DNA from: Gemmatimonadota bacterium
GTDB taxonomy: Bacteria; Gemmatimonadota; Gemmatimonadetes; Gemmatimonadales; GWC2-71-9
DNA length: 64,000 nucleotides
NCBI GenBank assembly: GCA_003222195.1
Contig: QHVB01000027.1
Location: 186,001 to 250,000, forward strand
Reading direction: 5' to 3'
Part shown: positions 2 to 54,363 of the stretch, one piece after another
How positions within the stretch are numbered: position 1 is the first letter of the stretch
Layout of the letters: each line of letters opens with the position of its first letter
Position numbers and translations under genes: made by a program
Notes under the pieces: model-generated
What the model was told of the DNA's origin: nothing
The model's input: the letters and a program-made list of their open reading frames with translations, nothing else
The model's database searches: none

Positions 2-463
2 TCGGCCACGCGTCTCTACGCGACGGCGTTCATGGTTTTGCTGGTCGGCGTGTTCGCCTGGTTCGCGTGGACCGTGCTGCGCGGCCAGCGGCAGCGGTTT
101 GTGTTCGGCTCGCTCATGCAGGGCCTGGCTGTGCTGGCCGGCCTGCATCTCCTCAACCCCGATGCCTTCATCGTCAAGACGAATCTCAATCGTCCCGCGG
201 CTGAGCGGCCGTTCGACGCGAAGTACGCCGTGACACTGGGGGGAGACGCCGTGCCCTCGCTTCTCGCCGCCTTGCCGCAGCTCGGCGCCGACACCCGCTG
301 CATCGTGGTGCACGGCCTGCTGAAGCGCTGGGACAAAGCGGAAGTCGATTGGCGCACCTGGAACTGGAGTCGCGCACGCGCACGTAGCCTTGTCCGCAGC
401 CAAGCCGACGCCCTGAGGGCGTCGTGTCCAACCCCACCGCAGGAGCAGCGCAATGATCACTGA
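2..463 (+). CDS. DUF4153/DUF4173-type membrane protein, C-terminal fragment
   Basis: The reading frame is open from the left edge, so only the last ~153 residues are present and the start lies outside the window. The fragment has two hydrophobic helices (around the FMVLLVGVFAWFAWTVL and LMQGLAVLAGLHLLN stretches), followed by a soluble tail with the phrase NPDAFIVKTNLNR. That combination of helices followed by NPDA.IV.TN is what I know from the C-terminus of DUF4173/DUF4153 membrane proteins of unknown function. The last 11 bases overlap the next gene, which suggests translational coupling. Family assignment is from memory of the motif; function is unknown. Confidence 0.65.
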   Translation, partial: SATRLYATAFMVLLVGVFAWFAWTVLRGQRQRFVFGSLMQGLAVLAGLHLLNPDAFIVKTNLNRPAAERPFDAKYAVTLGGDAVPSLLAALPQLGADTRCIVVHGLLKRWDKAEVDWRTWNWSRARARSLVRSQADALRASCPTPPQEQRNDH

Positions 464-1079
464 TGGGTTGAATCCGTTCACGGTCCTGCTCTTTGTGGGC
501 GCCGTGCTGGTGGGGGCGACGCTCATCCTCCTCTACGTGATCGCGCGAGTGACGAAGCGCGAGCCGTTCGCCCGAATTACACTGCGGCTGCTGCTCGGGG
601 GCGCGGGTCTATATCTGCTCCTGTTCCTCGGCGCCTCACTGCTGAGCCACAATCGCGTGCTGGCGCCGGGCGAGGAGAAGCACATCTGCGAGATCGACTG
701 TCATCTGGCGTACGCAATCGCGGCGACCAAGTCGGAACCACTGCCGAACGGGCTGGTACGGACCACGGTGACGGTCAAAGTCCGATTCGATGAAGAGACG
801 ATCTCGTCGCGCCGGCCTCGGGACGCGACGCTAACACCCAACAGCAGATACGTCGCGTTGGTGGATGACGCGGGCAACCGGTACCCGGGGTCGACCGATG
901 GGCTGAAGCGCAAACTGATTCCCGGCGAGTCGTACACGACTGACATCGTGTTCGACGTACCTGCGGCAGTACCGGGCTTACGCTTGATCCTGCGCAACAA
1001 CGATCCCGAGACGGCATTCATCATCGGGCACGAGAACAGCCTGCTCCATGGCAAGACCACCTTTCGCTTGCCAGGATAG
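453..1079 (+). CDS. Hypothetical protein, two membrane helices and a periplasmic domain
   Basis: 208 residues. An AGGAG ribosome-binding site lies 7 bases upstream of the ATG, which overlaps the end of the preceding membrane-protein gene by 11 bp. Two hydrophobic segments (about residues 8-28 and 43-62) precede a ~145-residue extracytoplasmic domain rich in beta-type sequence, containing a Cys pair (ICEIDC, about residues 79-84) that could form a disulfide. I do not recognise the domain. Coupling to the DUF4173-type gene suggests a partner role in the same envelope process, but this is inference. Confidence 0.7.
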   Translation: MITDGLNPFTVLLFVGAVLVGATLILLYVIARVTKREPFARITLRLLLGGAGLYLLLFLGASLLSHNRVLAPGEEKHICEIDCHLAYAIAATKSEPLPNGLVRTTVTVKVRFDEETISSRRPRDATLTPNSRYVALVDDAGNRYPGSTDGLKRKLIPGESYTTDIVFDVPAAVPGLRLILRNNDPETAFIIGHENSLLHGKTTFRLPG

Positions 1080-1080
1080 G

Positions 1081-1102
1081 GGTCAGGTGTCTGGTGTCAG
1101 GG
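1081..1102. repeat. Left heptamer-type inverted repeat arm flanking the four-helix-bundle gene
   Basis: Tandem units of the form GGTGTC(N) (GGTGTCT then GGTGTCA). Bases 1086-1101 are a perfect 16-bp inverted match to 1553-1568 on the far side of the gene. The stop codon of the four-helix-bundle gene (1097-1099 on the minus strand) lies inside this arm. Confidence 0.85.
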
Positions 1103-1480
1103 ACGACGTGCCTTGAGCGCCCGGACGAGACCGGCAAGGAGCCGTCCGACGTCTCCGCTCAAATTCAGCCCGTGCTCTAAAGCGGCCTGATCGATGTAGT
1201 GCCTGCGCGAGGCGATTAGAAACTGAGTCTCAAGCTCCATCAATGATCCATTCGCAATCGATAGGTGATGGAGATACTCTCCGAGGTGTTGCCTTCCGTG
1301 TCCCTCAGCGATGTTGCTGGGAATCGACGCGGAGGAGCGCTGCATTTGACTCGTTAATGCAAATCGCTCGTCCCTAGGAAACGATTTGGTGACCTCGTAG
1401 GCGAAGTCAGTGAGCTCCATCGCGCGCTGCCAAACGATCAAATCGCGATACGAAACGACACGGGTTCGTGCAACGGTCAT
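1097..1480 (-). CDS. Four-helix-bundle (23S rRNA intervening-sequence / Avd-like) protein
   Basis: 127 residues starting at the ATG at 1480. Contains the family signatures YRDLIVWQRAMEL near the N-terminus and SSASIPSNIAEGHGR in the middle, followed by ANGSLMELETQ; these define the TIGR02436/PF05635 four-helix-bundle family. Members were first seen inside intervening sequences of 23S rRNA and are structural relatives of the accessory variability determinant of diversity-generating retroelements; their molecular function is unclear. The gene is visibly more AT-rich than its neighbours. It sits alone between inverted heptamer repeats (1081-1102 and 1551-1583) and takes its stop codon from the left one, so it looks like a mobile cassette inserted between the flanking genes. 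No reverse transcriptase or rRNA is nearby. Confidence 0.9.
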   Translation of the reverse strand: MTVARTRVVSYRDLIVWQRAMELTDFAYEVTKSFPRDERFALTSQMQRSSASIPSNIAEGHGRQHLGEYLHHLSIANGSLMELETQFLIASRRHYIDQAALEHGLNLSGDVGRLLAGLVRALKARRP

Positions 1481-1550
1481 CCTCGACAATCGTATGTCAG
1501 CGTCGGTCGTTGTCAGACCATTCGAGCTCCCCTGGGCACATTCGAGCGCA

Positions 1551-1583
1551 GACCTGACACCAGACACCCGACACCTGACACCG
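1551..1583. repeat. Right heptamer-type inverted repeat arm flanking the four-helix-bundle gene
   Basis: Read on the minus strand it is four consecutive heptamers GGTGTCA, GGTGTCG, GGTGTCT, GGTGTCA, varying only at the seventh base. Bases 1553-1568 pair perfectly with 1086-1101. It lies 15 bp upstream of the phzF-like start codon. Confidence 0.85.
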
Positions 1584-1598
1584 CTAGATTTGATCATC

Positions 1599-2408
1599 AT
1601 GCTCCTCCGTATCACGCAGGTAGACGCCTTCACCAATCGCCCGTTCGCCGGCAACCCCGCCGCCGTCTGCATCCTTCCCAAGGCCGCCGATTCCGCCTGG
1701 ATGCTGAACGTCGCGCGCGAGATGAACCTCGCCGAGACCGCGTTCCTCGTTCGCCAAAAGGATGGCTACGATCTCCGCTGGTTCACGCCCGCGGTGGAAG
1801 TCGATCTCTGCGGTCACGCGACACTCGCGAGCGCGCACGTGCTATGGGAAGACGGACATCTCAAACCTGATTCGCAGGCGCGCTTCCACACCAAGAGCGG
1901 TCTCCTGACAGCCGATCGGCGCGCGCCCTGGATCGAGCTCGACTTTCCCACCACGCCGCCAGTGGCCGCACCTCCGCCCGCCGGTCTCGTCGAGGCGCTC
2001 GGCGCCAAGCCGAGATTCGTGGGTCGCAGCTGCTTCGATTACCTCGTCGAAGTCGACGACGAAGCGACCGTGCGTGGGTTGACTCCCGATCTCAACGCCT
2101 TGAGTCAGGTCCAAGCGCGCGGTGTGATCGTCACGACTCGGAGTGATGGAAAGAGCGACTACGACTTCGTGTCGCGCTTCTTCGCACCACAATCGGGCGT
2201 TCCAGAGGACCCCGTCACCGGATCCGCCCACTGCGCGCTCACGCCATACTGGAGCGCGAAGTTGGGAAAGACCGAGTTGGTCGCCTATCAGGCGTCGGCG
2301 CGCGGCGGCGAGCTGCGGCTGCGACTCGCCGGCGACCGGGTTCGTATCGGCGGACAGGCCGTGACGGTGTTGCGCGCAGAACTCACCGCGGGCAATATGG
2401 CATCGTGA
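1599..2408 (+). CDS. PhzF family isomerase/epimerase
   Basis: 269 residues from the ATG at 1599; an upstream extension would run through the inverted repeat and is not family-like. PhzF-fold motifs are present: DAFTNRPFAGNPAAVC at the N-terminus, the catalytic Glu in NLAETAFL (about residue 47), VDLCGHATLASAH, and PEDPVTGSAHCAL in the C-terminal half. PhzF proteins are two-domain diaminopimelate-epimerase-fold enzymes; phenazine-forming ones isomerise trans-2,3-dihydro-3-hydroxyanthranilate, but most homologues act on unknown substrates and no other phenazine genes are here. The stop overlaps the GTG start of the EamA transporter by 4 bases, so the two are probably co-translated. Confidence 0.92.
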   Translation: MLLRITQVDAFTNRPFAGNPAAVCILPKAADSAWMLNVAREMNLAETAFLVRQKDGYDLRWFTPAVEVDLCGHATLASAHVLWEDGHLKPDSQARFHTKSGLLTADRRAPWIELDFPTTPPVAAPPPAGLVEALGAKPRFVGRSCFDYLVEVDDEATVRGLTPDLNALSQVQARGVIVTTRSDGKSDYDFVSRFFAPQSGVPEDPVTGSAHCALTPYWSAKLGKTELVAYQASARGGELRLRLAGDRVRIGGQAVTVLRAELTAGNMAS

Positions 2409-16381: not shown

Positions 16382-17614
16382 CTACCGGCGGGGCGGACTC
16401 CGCATTGCGACCGCGACGCGCTCTGCCTCTCGCATCACGCGCAGCGTATTCACTCCGGCCAGCTTCTTCACGTCCGTTTCCGCCCAGCCGCGCCGCAGCA
16501 GCTCAGCGATCAAATCGGGCAACTTCGAGACGTCCTCCAGGCCCACGGGAACTTCGGTGATCCCGTCGAAGTCGGAGCCGAGTCCGACGCAATCGATCCC
16601 GGCGACCTGGCGGATATGCTCGATGTGATCGGCGACCTGCTGCAACGTCGCGTGCGGGGCACGCGCATTCCACGCTTTCAGCGAATCGGCCCGTGTCGCT
16701 GAATCAGCGCCCGCGGCGCGCAGCGCCTCCAACCGCGCGTTTACGCTGTCGCCGTAGACGCGAACTGCCTCGGAAACAAAGCCGGGATTGAAATTCACCA
16801 TCACCACCCCGCGGTTCTTGGCAACGAGCTTCAAAATCGAATCGGGAACGTCGCGTGCGTGATTGGTGAGGGCACGTGCCGAGGAGTGCGAGAAAATGAT
16901 CGGCGCCCGCGACGTGTGCAGGGCGTCTGACATCGTCTGGTCGTTCACATGCGACAGGTCGACCAGCATCCCCAGGCGATTCATCTCGAGCACGACTTGC
17001 TTGCCGAAGGCCGACAGGCCACGGTGCGCGGTATCGGTGGAGGCGACGGCCCAATCGAGGCTCCGCCAGTGCGTCAGCGTCATGTAGCGCGTGCCGAGCG
17101 CGGAAAACATCCGCAGCGCACCCAGGGAGTTCTCGATGGCGTGGCCGCCCTCGATCCCGATCAAGCAGGAGATCTTGCCCGCCGCGAAGTTGCGCTGCAC
17201 GTCGGCGGCCGTGTACGCCATCGCCATGCTGCGCGAATTCCTGGCGCACAGCCGATGGATGAGGTCGATCTGCTCGAGCGCATAGACGGCGGGATGCGGG
17301 CCGGAATCCATCGTCGTCGACGGGACGTACGCCGCCCAGAATTGACCGCCCGCATGCCCGCTGCGAAGACGCGGGATGTCCGTCATCAGTTTGGGCTGGC
17401 TTACGGCGAAGTTGACGGAATCGAGACCGCCCCGCTCGCGAATGGCATCGGGGATGTCGTTGTGACCGTCGATGAGGGGCAGCGTGCGGAGGATGCGAAT
17501 GGCCTCGGCTCGATAGTCTTGGGCGGTTAAGCGGTTGGGCGGTTGAGCGGTTAGTAAGATGGTCACGCCAAGAGTTCGAACCGCCAAACCGCCCAACCGC
17601 CTAACCGAGTTCAT
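16382..17614 (-). CDS. M19 family membrane dipeptidase (renal-dipeptidase type)
   Basis: 410 residues from the ATG at 17614 (a TTG at 17641 is possible). Catalytic-site motifs of the M19 dinuclear-zinc family are present: DGHNDIPDAIRE near residue 50, GIEGGHAIENSLGALR with the bridging Glu, VDLSHV, FSHSSARALTNHARDVPD with two His, and VGLGSDFDG. These enzymes hydrolyse dipeptides, often with D-residues, in the periplasm. The signal-peptide region (about residues 4-31) is encoded almost entirely by an inverted repeat of tandem octamers (17524-17607), so its sequence is repeat-derived. Divergent from the molybdenum-hydroxylase operon. Confidence 0.93.
   Translation of the reverse strand: MNSVRRLGGLAVRTLGVTILLTAQPPNRLTAQDYRAEAIRILRTLPLIDGHNDIPDAIRERGGLDSVNFAVSQPKLMTDIPRLRSGHAGGQFWAAYVPSTTMDSGPHPAVYALEQIDLIHRLCARNSRSMAMAYTAADVQRNFAAGKISCLIGIEGGHAIENSLGALRMFSALGTRYMTLTHWRSLDWAVASTDTAHRGLSAFGKQVVLEMNRLGMLVDLSHVNDQTMSDALHTSRAPIIFSHSSARALTNHARDVPDSILKLVAKNRGVVMVNFNPGFVSEAVRVYGDSVNARLEALRAAGADSATRADSLKAWNARAPHATLQQVADHIEHIRQVAGIDCVGLGSDFDGITEVPVGLEDVSKLPDLIAELLRRGWAETDVKKLAGVNTLRVMREAERVAVAMRSPPRR
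17524..17607. repeat. Octamer-armed palindromic element inside the M19 signal-peptide coding region
   Basis: Left arm 17524-17553, right arm 17578-17607, 24-nt spacer; 26 of 30 arm positions pair. Each arm is four tandem 8-mers of the GGCGGTT(A/G) type. The element is in frame with, and translated as part of, the dipeptidase N-terminus. Architecture matches the elements at 20779-20864 and 54012-54081. Confidence 0.85.
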
Positions 17615-20600: not shown

Positions 20601-21571
20601 TGCTGCGACTGCCGACGTTCCGCTACCTCCAGCCGCGTTCACTGCGAGAAGCGCTGGCGATGAAGGCAGACGCCGGACCCGATGGGATGTTCGTGGCGGG
20701 CGGCACGGATCTCTATCCAAACATGAAGCGGCGGCATCAGGAGCCGCGCGTCGTGATCTCGTTGATGGGAATAGAAGAATTGAGAAGGTTGGACGGTTGG
20801 AATGTTGGAACGTGTGTCACGTTGAGCGCACTTTCCAGCCTTCCAACCTTCCAACGTTCTCAATCTGCAGTCGCCGGCGCCGCCCAGCTCGTCTCCACCC
20901 CGCTGCTGCGCAACATGGGGACGCTCGGCGGCAACCTCTGTCTCGACACACGCTGCAACTACTACAACCAGAGCTACGAATGGCGGAAGTCGATCGACTT
21001 CTGCATGAAAAAAGACGGTGCCATCTGCTGGGTGGCGCCCTCGTCGCCGCGCTGCTGGGCGGTCAGCTCGTCCGACGTCGCGCCGGTCATGGTGGCGATC
21101 GGTGCGGAGTATCGGCTCGTCGGGCCGCAGGGTGAGCGCCTCGTGCCGGCGGGACGGTTCTACCACAACGACGGGATCAATTATCTGACCAAGCAGCCCG
21201 ATGAGATTCTCGTGGACGTTCGTCTCCCGGCGCCGAACGGCTGGGACGCGGTCTATCACAAGCTGCGGCGGCGCGGGTCGTTCGATTTCCCCGTGCTTGG
21301 CGTGGCAGCATGGATTCAGTGGAATGGCAAGAAAGTGGGCGAGGCACGGATCGTGTTGGGGGGTGTGGCGAGCTATCCGCAAGAGGTTGCGGCGGCCGGC
21401 GCGGCGCTCGAGGGCGCACCGCTTTCAGACGAAGCCATCGCCGCCGCGGCGGATGCGGCGTATCAGCCCTCGAAGCCGATGGACAATACCGATTTTGATC
21501 TGTCGTGGCGTAAGCAGATGACCCGCGTGTACGTGAAACGGGCCCTCGAAGAACTGAGGGCCCGTCACTAG
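20600..21571 (+). CDS. FAD-binding subunit with extra [4Fe-4S] loop (4-hydroxybenzoyl-CoA reductase beta type, HcrB-like)
   Basis: 323 residues. FAD-binding motifs VAGGTDLYP (32-40) and RNMGTLGGNLC (104-114) are intact. Right after them comes a Cys-rich insertion: Cys119, Cys135, Cys143 and Cys152, with spacings of 15, 7 and 8 residues. This is exactly the arrangement I know for the [4Fe-4S] ligands in HcrB of Thauera, and it is absent from ordinary xanthine dehydrogenase FAD subunits. The extra cluster reverses electron flow toward aryl-CoA reduction in that enzyme. Residues ~60-89 are encoded by an octamer-armed palindrome (20779-20864) that stays in frame. The last codons contain a 10-bp perfect stem (21538-21565). 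Confidence 0.94.
   Translation: MLRLPTFRYLQPRSLREALAMKADAGPDGMFVAGGTDLYPNMKRRHQEPRVVISLMGIEELRRLDGWNVGTCVTLSALSSLPTFQRSQSAVAGAAQLVSTPLLRNMGTLGGNLCLDTRCNYYNQSYEWRKSIDFCMKKDGAICWVAPSSPRCWAVSSSDVAPVMVAIGAEYRLVGPQGERLVPAGRFYHNDGINYLTKQPDEILVDVRLPAPNGWDAVYHKLRRRGSFDFPVLGVAAWIQWNGKKVGEARIVLGGVASYPQEVAAAGAALEGAPLSDEAIAAAADAAYQPSKPMDNTDFDLSWRKQMTRVYVKRALEELRARH
20779..20864. repeat. Octamer-armed palindromic element inside the FAD-subunit gene
   Basis: Left arm 20779-20810 and right arm 20833-20864 (32 nt each, 28 pairing), spacer 22 nt. Arms are tandem 8-mers of the GGTTGGAA type. The element is translated in frame between the FAD-binding segment and the RNMGTLGG motif. Confidence 0.88.
21538..21565 (-). 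terminator. Hairpin at the end of the FAD-subunit gene, likely terminator for padR
   Basis: Perfect 10-bp stem (ACGGGCCCTC, 8-nt loop, GAGGGCCCGT). Read on the minus strand, just past the padR-like stop, the stem is followed by TTT; on the plus strand no T-run follows. It lies in the last codons of the FAD-subunit gene. Confidence 0.55.
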
Positions 21572-53157: not shown

Positions 53158-54363
53158 TCAAGACCGCCGCAGTTCGAACAGCGCAATCTCCGGCGGTACA
53201 AAGACCCGCAGCGGCACTCCTACGACACCGATCCCGCGACTCACGTACAGTTGACTGCTCCCCTGCACGAAGTGCCCCATCACGTACTTCGTGATCAGTC
53301 GCCCCGGTGACCAGCCGACCACGGGCAGACAGAACTGGCCGCCGTGAATGTGGCCGGCCAGGGTGAGAGGAATCCCGCGCGGCGCGGCGCCGTCGAAGGC
53401 ACCGGGGCGGTGAGCGAGCAGGATGCGGAACGCGTCTTTCGCCGGCGGCGTGAGCCGCAGCGCGGGCTCGAGGTCGTAGTCCTGCGGATCGTCCGCGTGC
53501 CAGTTTCGCGGGTCGTCGATGCCGATCAGCGCGAGCGCGGCGCCGCCCCGCTCGATGACGTGCGCGCCATTCTTCACGAACACCTGCCCCGCATCGCGCA
53601 CGCCACGAATCACGGCGTCCTCGCCCGTGTAGCGATCGTGATTGCCCAGGACAGTCACCACGCCGAGCGGAGCGCGCAGGTCGCGAAACGCTCGCACATA
53701 GTCCGAGATATACGATTGCGAGATGTCGATCATGTCGCCGGTCTGCACGATCAGATCGGCGCCGAGGGCGTTCGTCTGCGCGACGATGGCCCGCATTTTC
53801 GCTTCGGACATGTGAATGCCGGCGTGCACATCGGAGAGATGCGCGATGCGGAGCCCGTTGAGCCCGGCCGGCAGATTCGGAAATACCAGCGCGCGGCGCG
53901 TGACCTCCGGAAGGCGCTCGGCGCTCCAGATGCCGTAGGCCGACACGCCGAGTCCGGCGGCGGCGTAGGCGTAGGTGGCGCGGGCAAGAAACTGGCGACG
54001 CGACACCCGTTCGTCGTCCGTCGTGCGTCGTGCGTCGGGAGGCTGGCCAGAGCGCTCACGCACGACGTACGACGCACGACGCACCGTCCACCAGACGCCC
54101 TTCCCGAGCAGGTAGATGCAGATGAGCCCGCAGAATATCCAGCCGAGCAGCTGCCAGGCGATCCAGGGCGCGATGTAGGGAACACGACTGATCCCCCACA
54201 GACTGCCGGAGAACATCCGCACGGCGACGATGCCCCACGGGATGTTGAAGACGACGAACACGAGGGTGAGCCAGCGCCGCGCCGAGAGCGGCAGGCGCTC
54301 CCGCAGATAGAGATAGAGCAGCAGTTGAGGCGCTGCGAACAGCGAAAGGTAGATTAGGGCCAT
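53158..54363 (-). CDS. Membrane-anchored metallophosphoesterase
   Basis: 401 residues. Three or four N-terminal helices (residues 1-90), a basic linker (about 94-118), then a Tat-like SRRQFLARATYAYAAAG helix and the catalytic domain with the five metallophosphoesterase motifs: HLSDVHAG, GDMID, GNHD, AHRP and GHIHGGQF. This is the YkuE/YaeI-type group, which may act on membrane lipids or nucleotides. The linker is encoded by a heptamer-armed palindrome (54012-54081). Its start codon shares CATG with the start of the divergent S41-like gene, leaving no intergenic space. Confidence 0.93.
   Translation of the reverse strand: MALIYLSLFAAPQLLLYLYLRERLPLSARRWLTLVFVVFNIPWGIVAVRMFSGSLWGISRVPYIAPWIAWQLLGWIFCGLICIYLLGKGVWWTVRRASYVVRERSGQPPDARRTTDDERVSRRQFLARATYAYAAAGLGVSAYGIWSAERLPEVTRRALVFPNLPAGLNGLRIAHLSDVHAGIHMSEAKMRAIVAQTNALGADLIVQTGDMIDISQSYISDYVRAFRDLRAPLGVVTVLGNHDRYTGEDAVIRGVRDAGQVFVKNGAHVIERGGAALALIGIDDPRNWHADDPQDYDLEPALRLTPPAKDAFRILLAHRPGAFDGAAPRGIPLTLAGHIHGGQFCLPVVGWSPGRLITKYVMGHFVQGSSQLYVSRGIGVVGVPLRVFVPPEIALFELRRS
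54012..54081. repeat. Heptamer-armed palindromic element inside the metallophosphoesterase gene
   Basis: Left arm 54012-54035 and right arm 54058-54081, pairing at 22 of 24 positions, 22-nt spacer. Arms are tandem CGTCGT(N) heptamers. Translated in frame as the cytoplasmic linker between the membrane helices and the SRRQF helix. Confidence 0.85.

Follow-up and report, generated by a model that had tools for sequence, protein, structure and literature searches.

A short gene enclosed by two inverted arrays of tandem heptamers, here termed arms, was found between two protein genes of the window, i.e. the whole stretch of 64,000 nucleotides that was analysed. The window lies on contig C17 of the source genome, a 3.5-Mb draft with 99.8% completeness. 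We refer to the gene together with its arms as the cassette and to the oligomer repeated in the arms as its word. The locus has the following features:

453..1079, + strand: upstream flanking gene without Pfam match; its TAG stop codon (1077-1079) marks where the insertion is bounded on the left
1078..1101, + strand: left arm, tandem heptamers GGGGTCA GGTGTCT GGTGTCA, starting within the upstream TAG stop codon, with the G-rich strand facing inward
1097..1480, - strand: cassette gene encoding a four-helix-bundle protein of 127 aa (PF05635 / TIGR02436, 23S rRNA intervening-sequence protein, Avd-like fold)
1481..1548, - strand: leader of 68 nt between start codon and right arm
1549..1582, - strand: right arm, heptamers GGTGTCA GGTGTCG GGTGTCT GGTGTCA GGTCTG on the - strand, inverted with respect to the left arm
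1599..2408, + strand: downstream flanking gene of the PhzF family (PF02567), forming the right side of the insertion site

The arms pair over 24 nt (1078-1101 with 1553-1576, 92%), including a perfect 16-bp core (1086-1101 with 1553-1568), and the right array of four to five units is longer than this core. Out of 3000 equally long intervals drawn at random from the window, none paired as well as this locus. A previous sequence-only reading of the window had described the perfect core, a stop codon lying in the left arm and a gene more AT-rich than its neighbours, and all three descriptions were confirmed: the left arm forms the TGA stop codon of the gene, and the GC content of 56.2%, compared to 61.9% and 65.4% for the neighbouring genes, falls into the lowest 0.2% among 384-nt windows. 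The arms were paired in the predicted RNA fold of the cassette (z=-3.96), and a search of the window for Rfam families retrieved none. The cassette is not located inside a 23S rRNA gene, as protein-coding frames are present on both sides.

The family assignment made from the letters alone was likewise borne out by profile scores for PF05635 (E=4e-35, 120.6 bits, cut-off 33.8) and TIGR02436 (E=8e-33, 112.9 bits, cut-off 24). The AlphaFold model of the protein (pLDDT 98) is a four-helix bundle which superimposes with Xcc0516 (2gsc) at a TM score of 0.97 and with DGR Avd at 0.82, while the Avd profile scored 35.8 bits against a cut-off of 80 bits. Crystal entries of relatives (2gsc and 2rld) comprise five chains apiece, and by analogy the window protein is probably pentameric. 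Five residues (Q, N, E, G, E) are invariant; polar residues listed as invariant are Q35, R38, N46, E49 and E72 (A1 numbering). The dN/dS ratio of 0.08-0.11 for the window gene indicates purifying selection, which speaks for a functional protein. Within the unit, profile matches of the gene were confined to PF05635 and bAvd, and neither a transposase nor a recombinase was recognised; no second annotated gene was present inside the plasmid copies described below. A PADLOC search for anti-phage defence systems and a search of the INPHARED phage records yielded no match to the window protein and gene, respectively, and the gene was present on ten contigs of IMG/VR. In one congener, the gene orthologous to that of the window (L424, G001:C118) is broken at about codon 107, and its arms are still perfect 27-nt inverted repeats.

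The cassette occupies the same position in five members of the genus. In congener G003 it is located about 800 bp away, in the gap between the PhzF gene and the next gene. In congener G005 the genes flanking the window cassette adjoin as ...GGGATAGCTTAGATTGC... with neither a cassette nor a trace of an arm; the boundaries of the window insertion follow from this one empty congener at 71-77% identity, in which loss by the lineage is possible. A second cassette of the source genome (GGGACGG word, C87:72145) is missing in seven congeners with a clean boundary. The genomes of the order are drafts.

Filled and empty sites were also compared among near-identical cyanobacterial plasmids. At site A, where the flanks are 97% identical, the sequence is AAAAAGTAATTAACAAA in empty plasmids and AAAAAGTAAT[cassette]GTAATTAACAAA in filled ones, so that the 5-bp sequence GTAAT flanks the cassette on both sides and is present as a single copy in the empty plasmids. 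At site D1, the empty sequence AGGTTCTAGGTTATG corresponds to the filled sequence AGGTTCTA[cassette]TTCTAGTTATG, with TTCTA on either side of the cassette and once when empty. Both 5-bp duplications overlap a stop codon. In another plasmid, a cassette with the word GGGGAAA occupies the next gap of the site D1 operon. Presence and absence at one stop codon were also observed at site C, with no distinct duplication, and at sites B and E a relative lacks the copy and the boundary is blurred. Target duplications are thus clear at two plasmid sites only and blurred elsewhere, including the window. The small mobile unit which had been proposed earlier is well supported by the empty plasmid sites, the 5-bp duplications and the congener comparisons, and the empty sites carried no arms, neither in G005 nor in the near-identical plasmids. 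Judged from these sequence comparisons, the cassette is mobile and inserts as a whole unit with its arms, mostly at the 3' ends of genes.

The arms are not restricted to the window locus. The source genome contains about eleven PF05635 genes, and inspection by eye showed inverted tandem 7- or 8-mers on both sides of nearly all of them, with a separate word for each gene (GGAGTCN, GGTGTCN, GGGGCCT, GGGACGG, GGCGGTTA, GGCGTGC, AATGNNC and others). Across 41 genomes of the same order, inverted flank repeats were detected at 102 of 119 family genes, the criterion being an inverted repeat between the two flanks that scored beyond the 99th percentile obtained with mismatched ones; about one was expected by chance and a control in direct orientation gave two. 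The inverted flanks of the remaining 17 genes were not significant. A cross-phylum scan with one genome per species yielded 80 loci from Acidobacteriota, Cyanobacteria, Planctomycetota, Pseudomonadota, Bacteroidota, Chloroflexota, candidate phyla and one archaeon; an initial alignment of 28 PF05635 proteins had been too diverse for use as scan query. Tandem arrays were present on both sides of 55 of the 78 genes for which both flanks were available, compared to 4 of 428 decoy intervals. Arms are therefore the usual condition at free-standing homologues, whose flanks had been named earlier as the place to look for inverted tandem oligomers. The period of the arrays was 7 in 50 of the 55 elements, in 49 of them the inward strand was rich in G at the left array and in C at the right one, and the modal number of units was four on each side. 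An arm was located at the stop codon of a neighbouring gene in 43 of 51 elements, compared to 14% of random positions, a preference that may reflect either targeting or selection against damage.

Arm similarity was then related to protein identity for 163 genes at unrelated sites. It was 0.20 for proteins of less than 40% identity and increased to 0.23 (40-50%), 0.29 (50-60%), 0.41 (60-70%), 0.73 (70-80%) and 0.90 (>80%). As word similarity rises with protein identity although the sites are unrelated, arms and gene evolve as one unit, and each protein lineage carries a private word. The two arms of one locus were alike at 0.71, far above the arms of unrelated loci. The tracking of words with proteins would fit specific recognition of the word by the protein; alternatively, it could reflect plain co-inheritance of the arms with the gene.

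Arrays also occur without a gene. In the source genome, the strict pattern GGTGTCNGGTGTC gave 37 matches at about 17 places and none in the reversed control, and most of the GGTGTC places are short hairpins with unrelated loops. Across 400 kb of one contig together with the window (464 kb), 17 inverted array pairs were counted, compared to zero after shuffling; several of their words match those of resident cassettes, and single, unpaired arrays occur as well. The private word of each lineage and the dispersal of gene-less hairpins with the same word through the genome extend beyond what the sequence-only reading had described. Three gene-less hairpins lie in the window itself. One of them (17523-17607) consists of tandem 8-mers GGCGGTTA, the word of a PF05635 cassette of the same genome (L036); another 8-mer hairpin of the GGTTGGAA/GGACGGTT type (20784-20859) overlaps predicted reading frames, and no cassette with such a word was seen in the source genome; the third (54008-54084) is a GTCGTGC heptamer hairpin which also overlaps predicted reading frames. 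Counts of GGTGTC arrays per genome were 37, 37, 39, 20, 15 and 4 where a window-type protein is present and 24, 14, 4 and 3 in genomes where it was not found; this excess is suggestive only. Hairpins with the word of the window are thus also present in the incomplete drafts G009 (24 matches) and G004 (14 matches), in which no window-type protein was found.

The words at a given site can be replaced. One intercistronic site in the genus carries hairpins of five different words in five genomes and is empty in five others, and another site shows four words. In ksgA (L004 1500-1600, G000:C8:8284), two inverted arrays of the GGTGTC type bracket native codons in three genomes, while the same two positions carry a different word in two genomes and no arrays in four. 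Arrays can hence arise around native sequence, which a simple cassette or cut-and-paste model does not predict. Elsewhere in the source genome, one of two inverted 8-mer arrays follows gcvP and the other is apparently located inside the next, lipoate-ligase-like gene (L235 2046-2463, G000:C87:62046), with words that vary among congeners. Inverted arrays were also found in an apparent linker-coding stretch (L233 14836-15159, G000:C87:34836), where the arms of G001 differ in word. A GGTGTC-like stretch in proS (L018) was rejected as an intragenic array, because the orthologues align without gaps and the sequence is native. The palindrome GTAGGGGCGCAGCATGCTGCGCCCCTAC (L235 10515-10590) has nearly identical copies at very many places in the searched congeners.

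In a rival reading, the arrays are mobile or expanding hairpins in their own right, and the four-helix-bundle gene is a mere passenger, often caught between two of them. Such a family would account for the excess of gene-less hairpins over cassettes and for arrays enclosing ksgA codons, a linker-like coding stretch and part of the lipoate-ligase-like gene after gcvP. We nevertheless regard this as unlikely, as arrays accompany most family members in many phyla and are absent from adjoining decoy intervals, the words track the protein, the gene is under purifying selection and the entire unit arrives jointly in near-identical plasmids. We consider it probable, at roughly 70%, that the feature is a mobile element of about 500 bp comprising one four-helix-bundle gene with an array of about four tandem heptamers on either side, the two arrays being inverted to each other.

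Among known elements, the 23S rRNA intervening sequence (IVS), long suspected to be a mobile remnant, comes closest. It lies in an rRNA gene and is cut from the rRNA, whereas the cassette is located between protein genes of chromosomes and plasmids, has a private word in each lineage and is accompanied by gene-less hairpins elsewhere. Both share the protein family (S23p ORF) and terminal inverted repeats which form a stem around the ORF, e.g. in Coxiella burnetii, where two or three copies of the tandem heptamer GACAGAT stand beside the ORF (PMC4990558). REPIN/RAYT systems likewise combine an autonomous gene between inverted repeats with many gene-less hairpins of the same sequence; RAYT, however, is a Y1 (HUH) transposase, whereas a four-helix bundle and arms of tandem heptamers are found here. 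An origin of the hairpins from REP/RAYT was rejected, since the repeat beside the Y1 transposase gene (G000:C14:3864-4350) is a different palindrome, the REP-like CACAGGCTAAAGCCTGTGCTCGGC..., which is dispersed in the genus (also L233 7745-7844). With insertion sequences and transposons the cassette shares terminal inverted repeats and, at two plasmid sites, a 5-bp target duplication, but a transposase of its own was not found. DGR Avd has the same fold and a distant sequence match, yet the window protein scores below the Avd cut-off and no reverse transcriptase was found in the genome. The element is apparently of a widespread and undescribed kind, as comparison with IVS, IS, RAYT and DGR placed it in none of these groups. 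Heptamer arms around PF05635 genes were not described in the available parts of the open-access literature naming the family, and a prior description is possible.

Similar repeats have been reported by Rehm et al. (PMC4692102), who describe the heptamers GGGAATC of Xanthomonas and GGGGA(C/T)T of Nostoc. These occur preferentially as four units, lie near stop codons and form convergent inverted pairs, of which a Xanthomonas genome has 70-75. There they are presented as quadruplex repeats, generally without association with mobile elements, and the available passages make no link to PF05635 genes. As cyanobacterial cassettes have similar words (GGGGAGT, GGGAACA), we infer that these heptamers may be tied to this gene family. 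The replacement of repeat classes in the stem of the Nostoc trnL intron (PMC4476775) and the unexplained TAACTGA repeats (PMC4679880) may be related, too.

For the mobile element proposed here, a mode of action can be sketched. By analogy with the five chains in the crystals of relatives, a ring of protein subunits could bind the array, one subunit per heptamer over a run of about four or five, with the array presented as a DNA single strand or as RNA; tandem arrays would be the natural footprint of such a ring. The bound ring would mark both ends of the unit, as well as the ends of gene-less hairpins, for mobilisation, and cutting and joining would most likely be carried out by an enzyme of the host for which the arm hairpin is the substrate. 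A host enzyme is our preferred guess because the unit contains no recognised transposase and the search of the source genome for a reverse transcriptase was negative. It is also possible that the protein itself has a catalytic activity of an unrecognised type, for which the five invariant residues would be candidates. The earlier suggestion that the arms are recognised by the unit's own protein or by a trans-acting enzyme stands insofar as the words follow the protein, which makes the protein itself the putative reader of its arms.

Movement through an RNA copy was also considered, in which an arm-closed transcript would be excised like a 23S rRNA IVS and reverse-transcribed by a trans-acting enzyme, with the protein playing an Avd-like role. 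The kinship of the protein with Avd in fold and sequence, the excision of rRNA IVS by RNase III (PMC4990558) and the insertion at gene ends would agree with this route. We judge it quite unlikely, as the 5-bp target duplications fit DNA strand transfer and the reverse transcriptase family PF00078 was found neither in the 99.8% complete source genome (G000) nor in 8 of 9 congeners; a resident reverse transcriptase in the source genome is itself unlikely. It is very unlikely that the arrays are regulatory sites and the protein a post-transcriptional regulator which binds the hairpins of a regulon and autoregulates its own gene. The hairpins do occupy intercistronic gaps and the 3' ends of genes, positions at which the structure of the mRNA might be important, the cassette RNA is predicted to fold with paired arms (z=-4.0), and most such repeats are transcribed in Xanthomonas (PMC4692102). 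In close relatives, however, the sites are empty or carry a different word and hence are not conserved as a regulon, and clean empty sites with target duplications mean insertion. Finally, replication slippage and template switching alone, building inverted heptamers at hairpin-prone spots without any movement, would be in keeping with unit numbers that differ between strains (PMC4990558) and with the likeness of the two arms of a locus, but this is highly improbable, as it fails to explain how a gene of about 360 bp could arrive, why there are empty sites and duplications, and why one word recurs at many sites per genome. Slippage, which the plasmid comparisons contradict for cassettes, may still shape the length of the arrays.

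Returning to the mobile element, a wider reading is held only tentatively: there may be a separate class of very small transposable elements in which PF05635 proteins provide recognition and perhaps catalysis as well, with a pentameric ring that would read the heptamers one per subunit. The class would extend over the bacteria and to at least one archaeon and would comprise rRNA IVS, free-standing cassettes and gene-less derivatives, the latter being heptamer repeats that have long lacked an explanation, such as cyanobacterial STRRs, the Xanthomonas GGGAATC repeats and RNA-gene stem repeats. To our knowledge, no function is assigned to the free-standing S23/IVP "four helix bundle" genes annotated in very many genomes, the question of where the 23S rRNA IVS comes from is decades old and the heptamer repeats of Nostoc and Xanthomonas have no accepted origin. 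If the reading is true, a single class of elements would unite these three, and a kind of mobile element would be added whose sole gene resembles no transposase.

It would also suggest why PF05635 genes appear in CRISPR operons and in a survey of CRISPR association: such cassettes are probably passengers which could pass for CRISPR-associated genes. On a plasmid of Picosynechococcus PCC 7003, a cassette (L435 1486-1842) is located between cas10 and cmr3 of a type III-B system, and PCC 7002 is without it. On a plasmid of Anabaena sp. 90, a cassette (L407 2986-3354) lies between cas6 and cas4 of a type I-D system.
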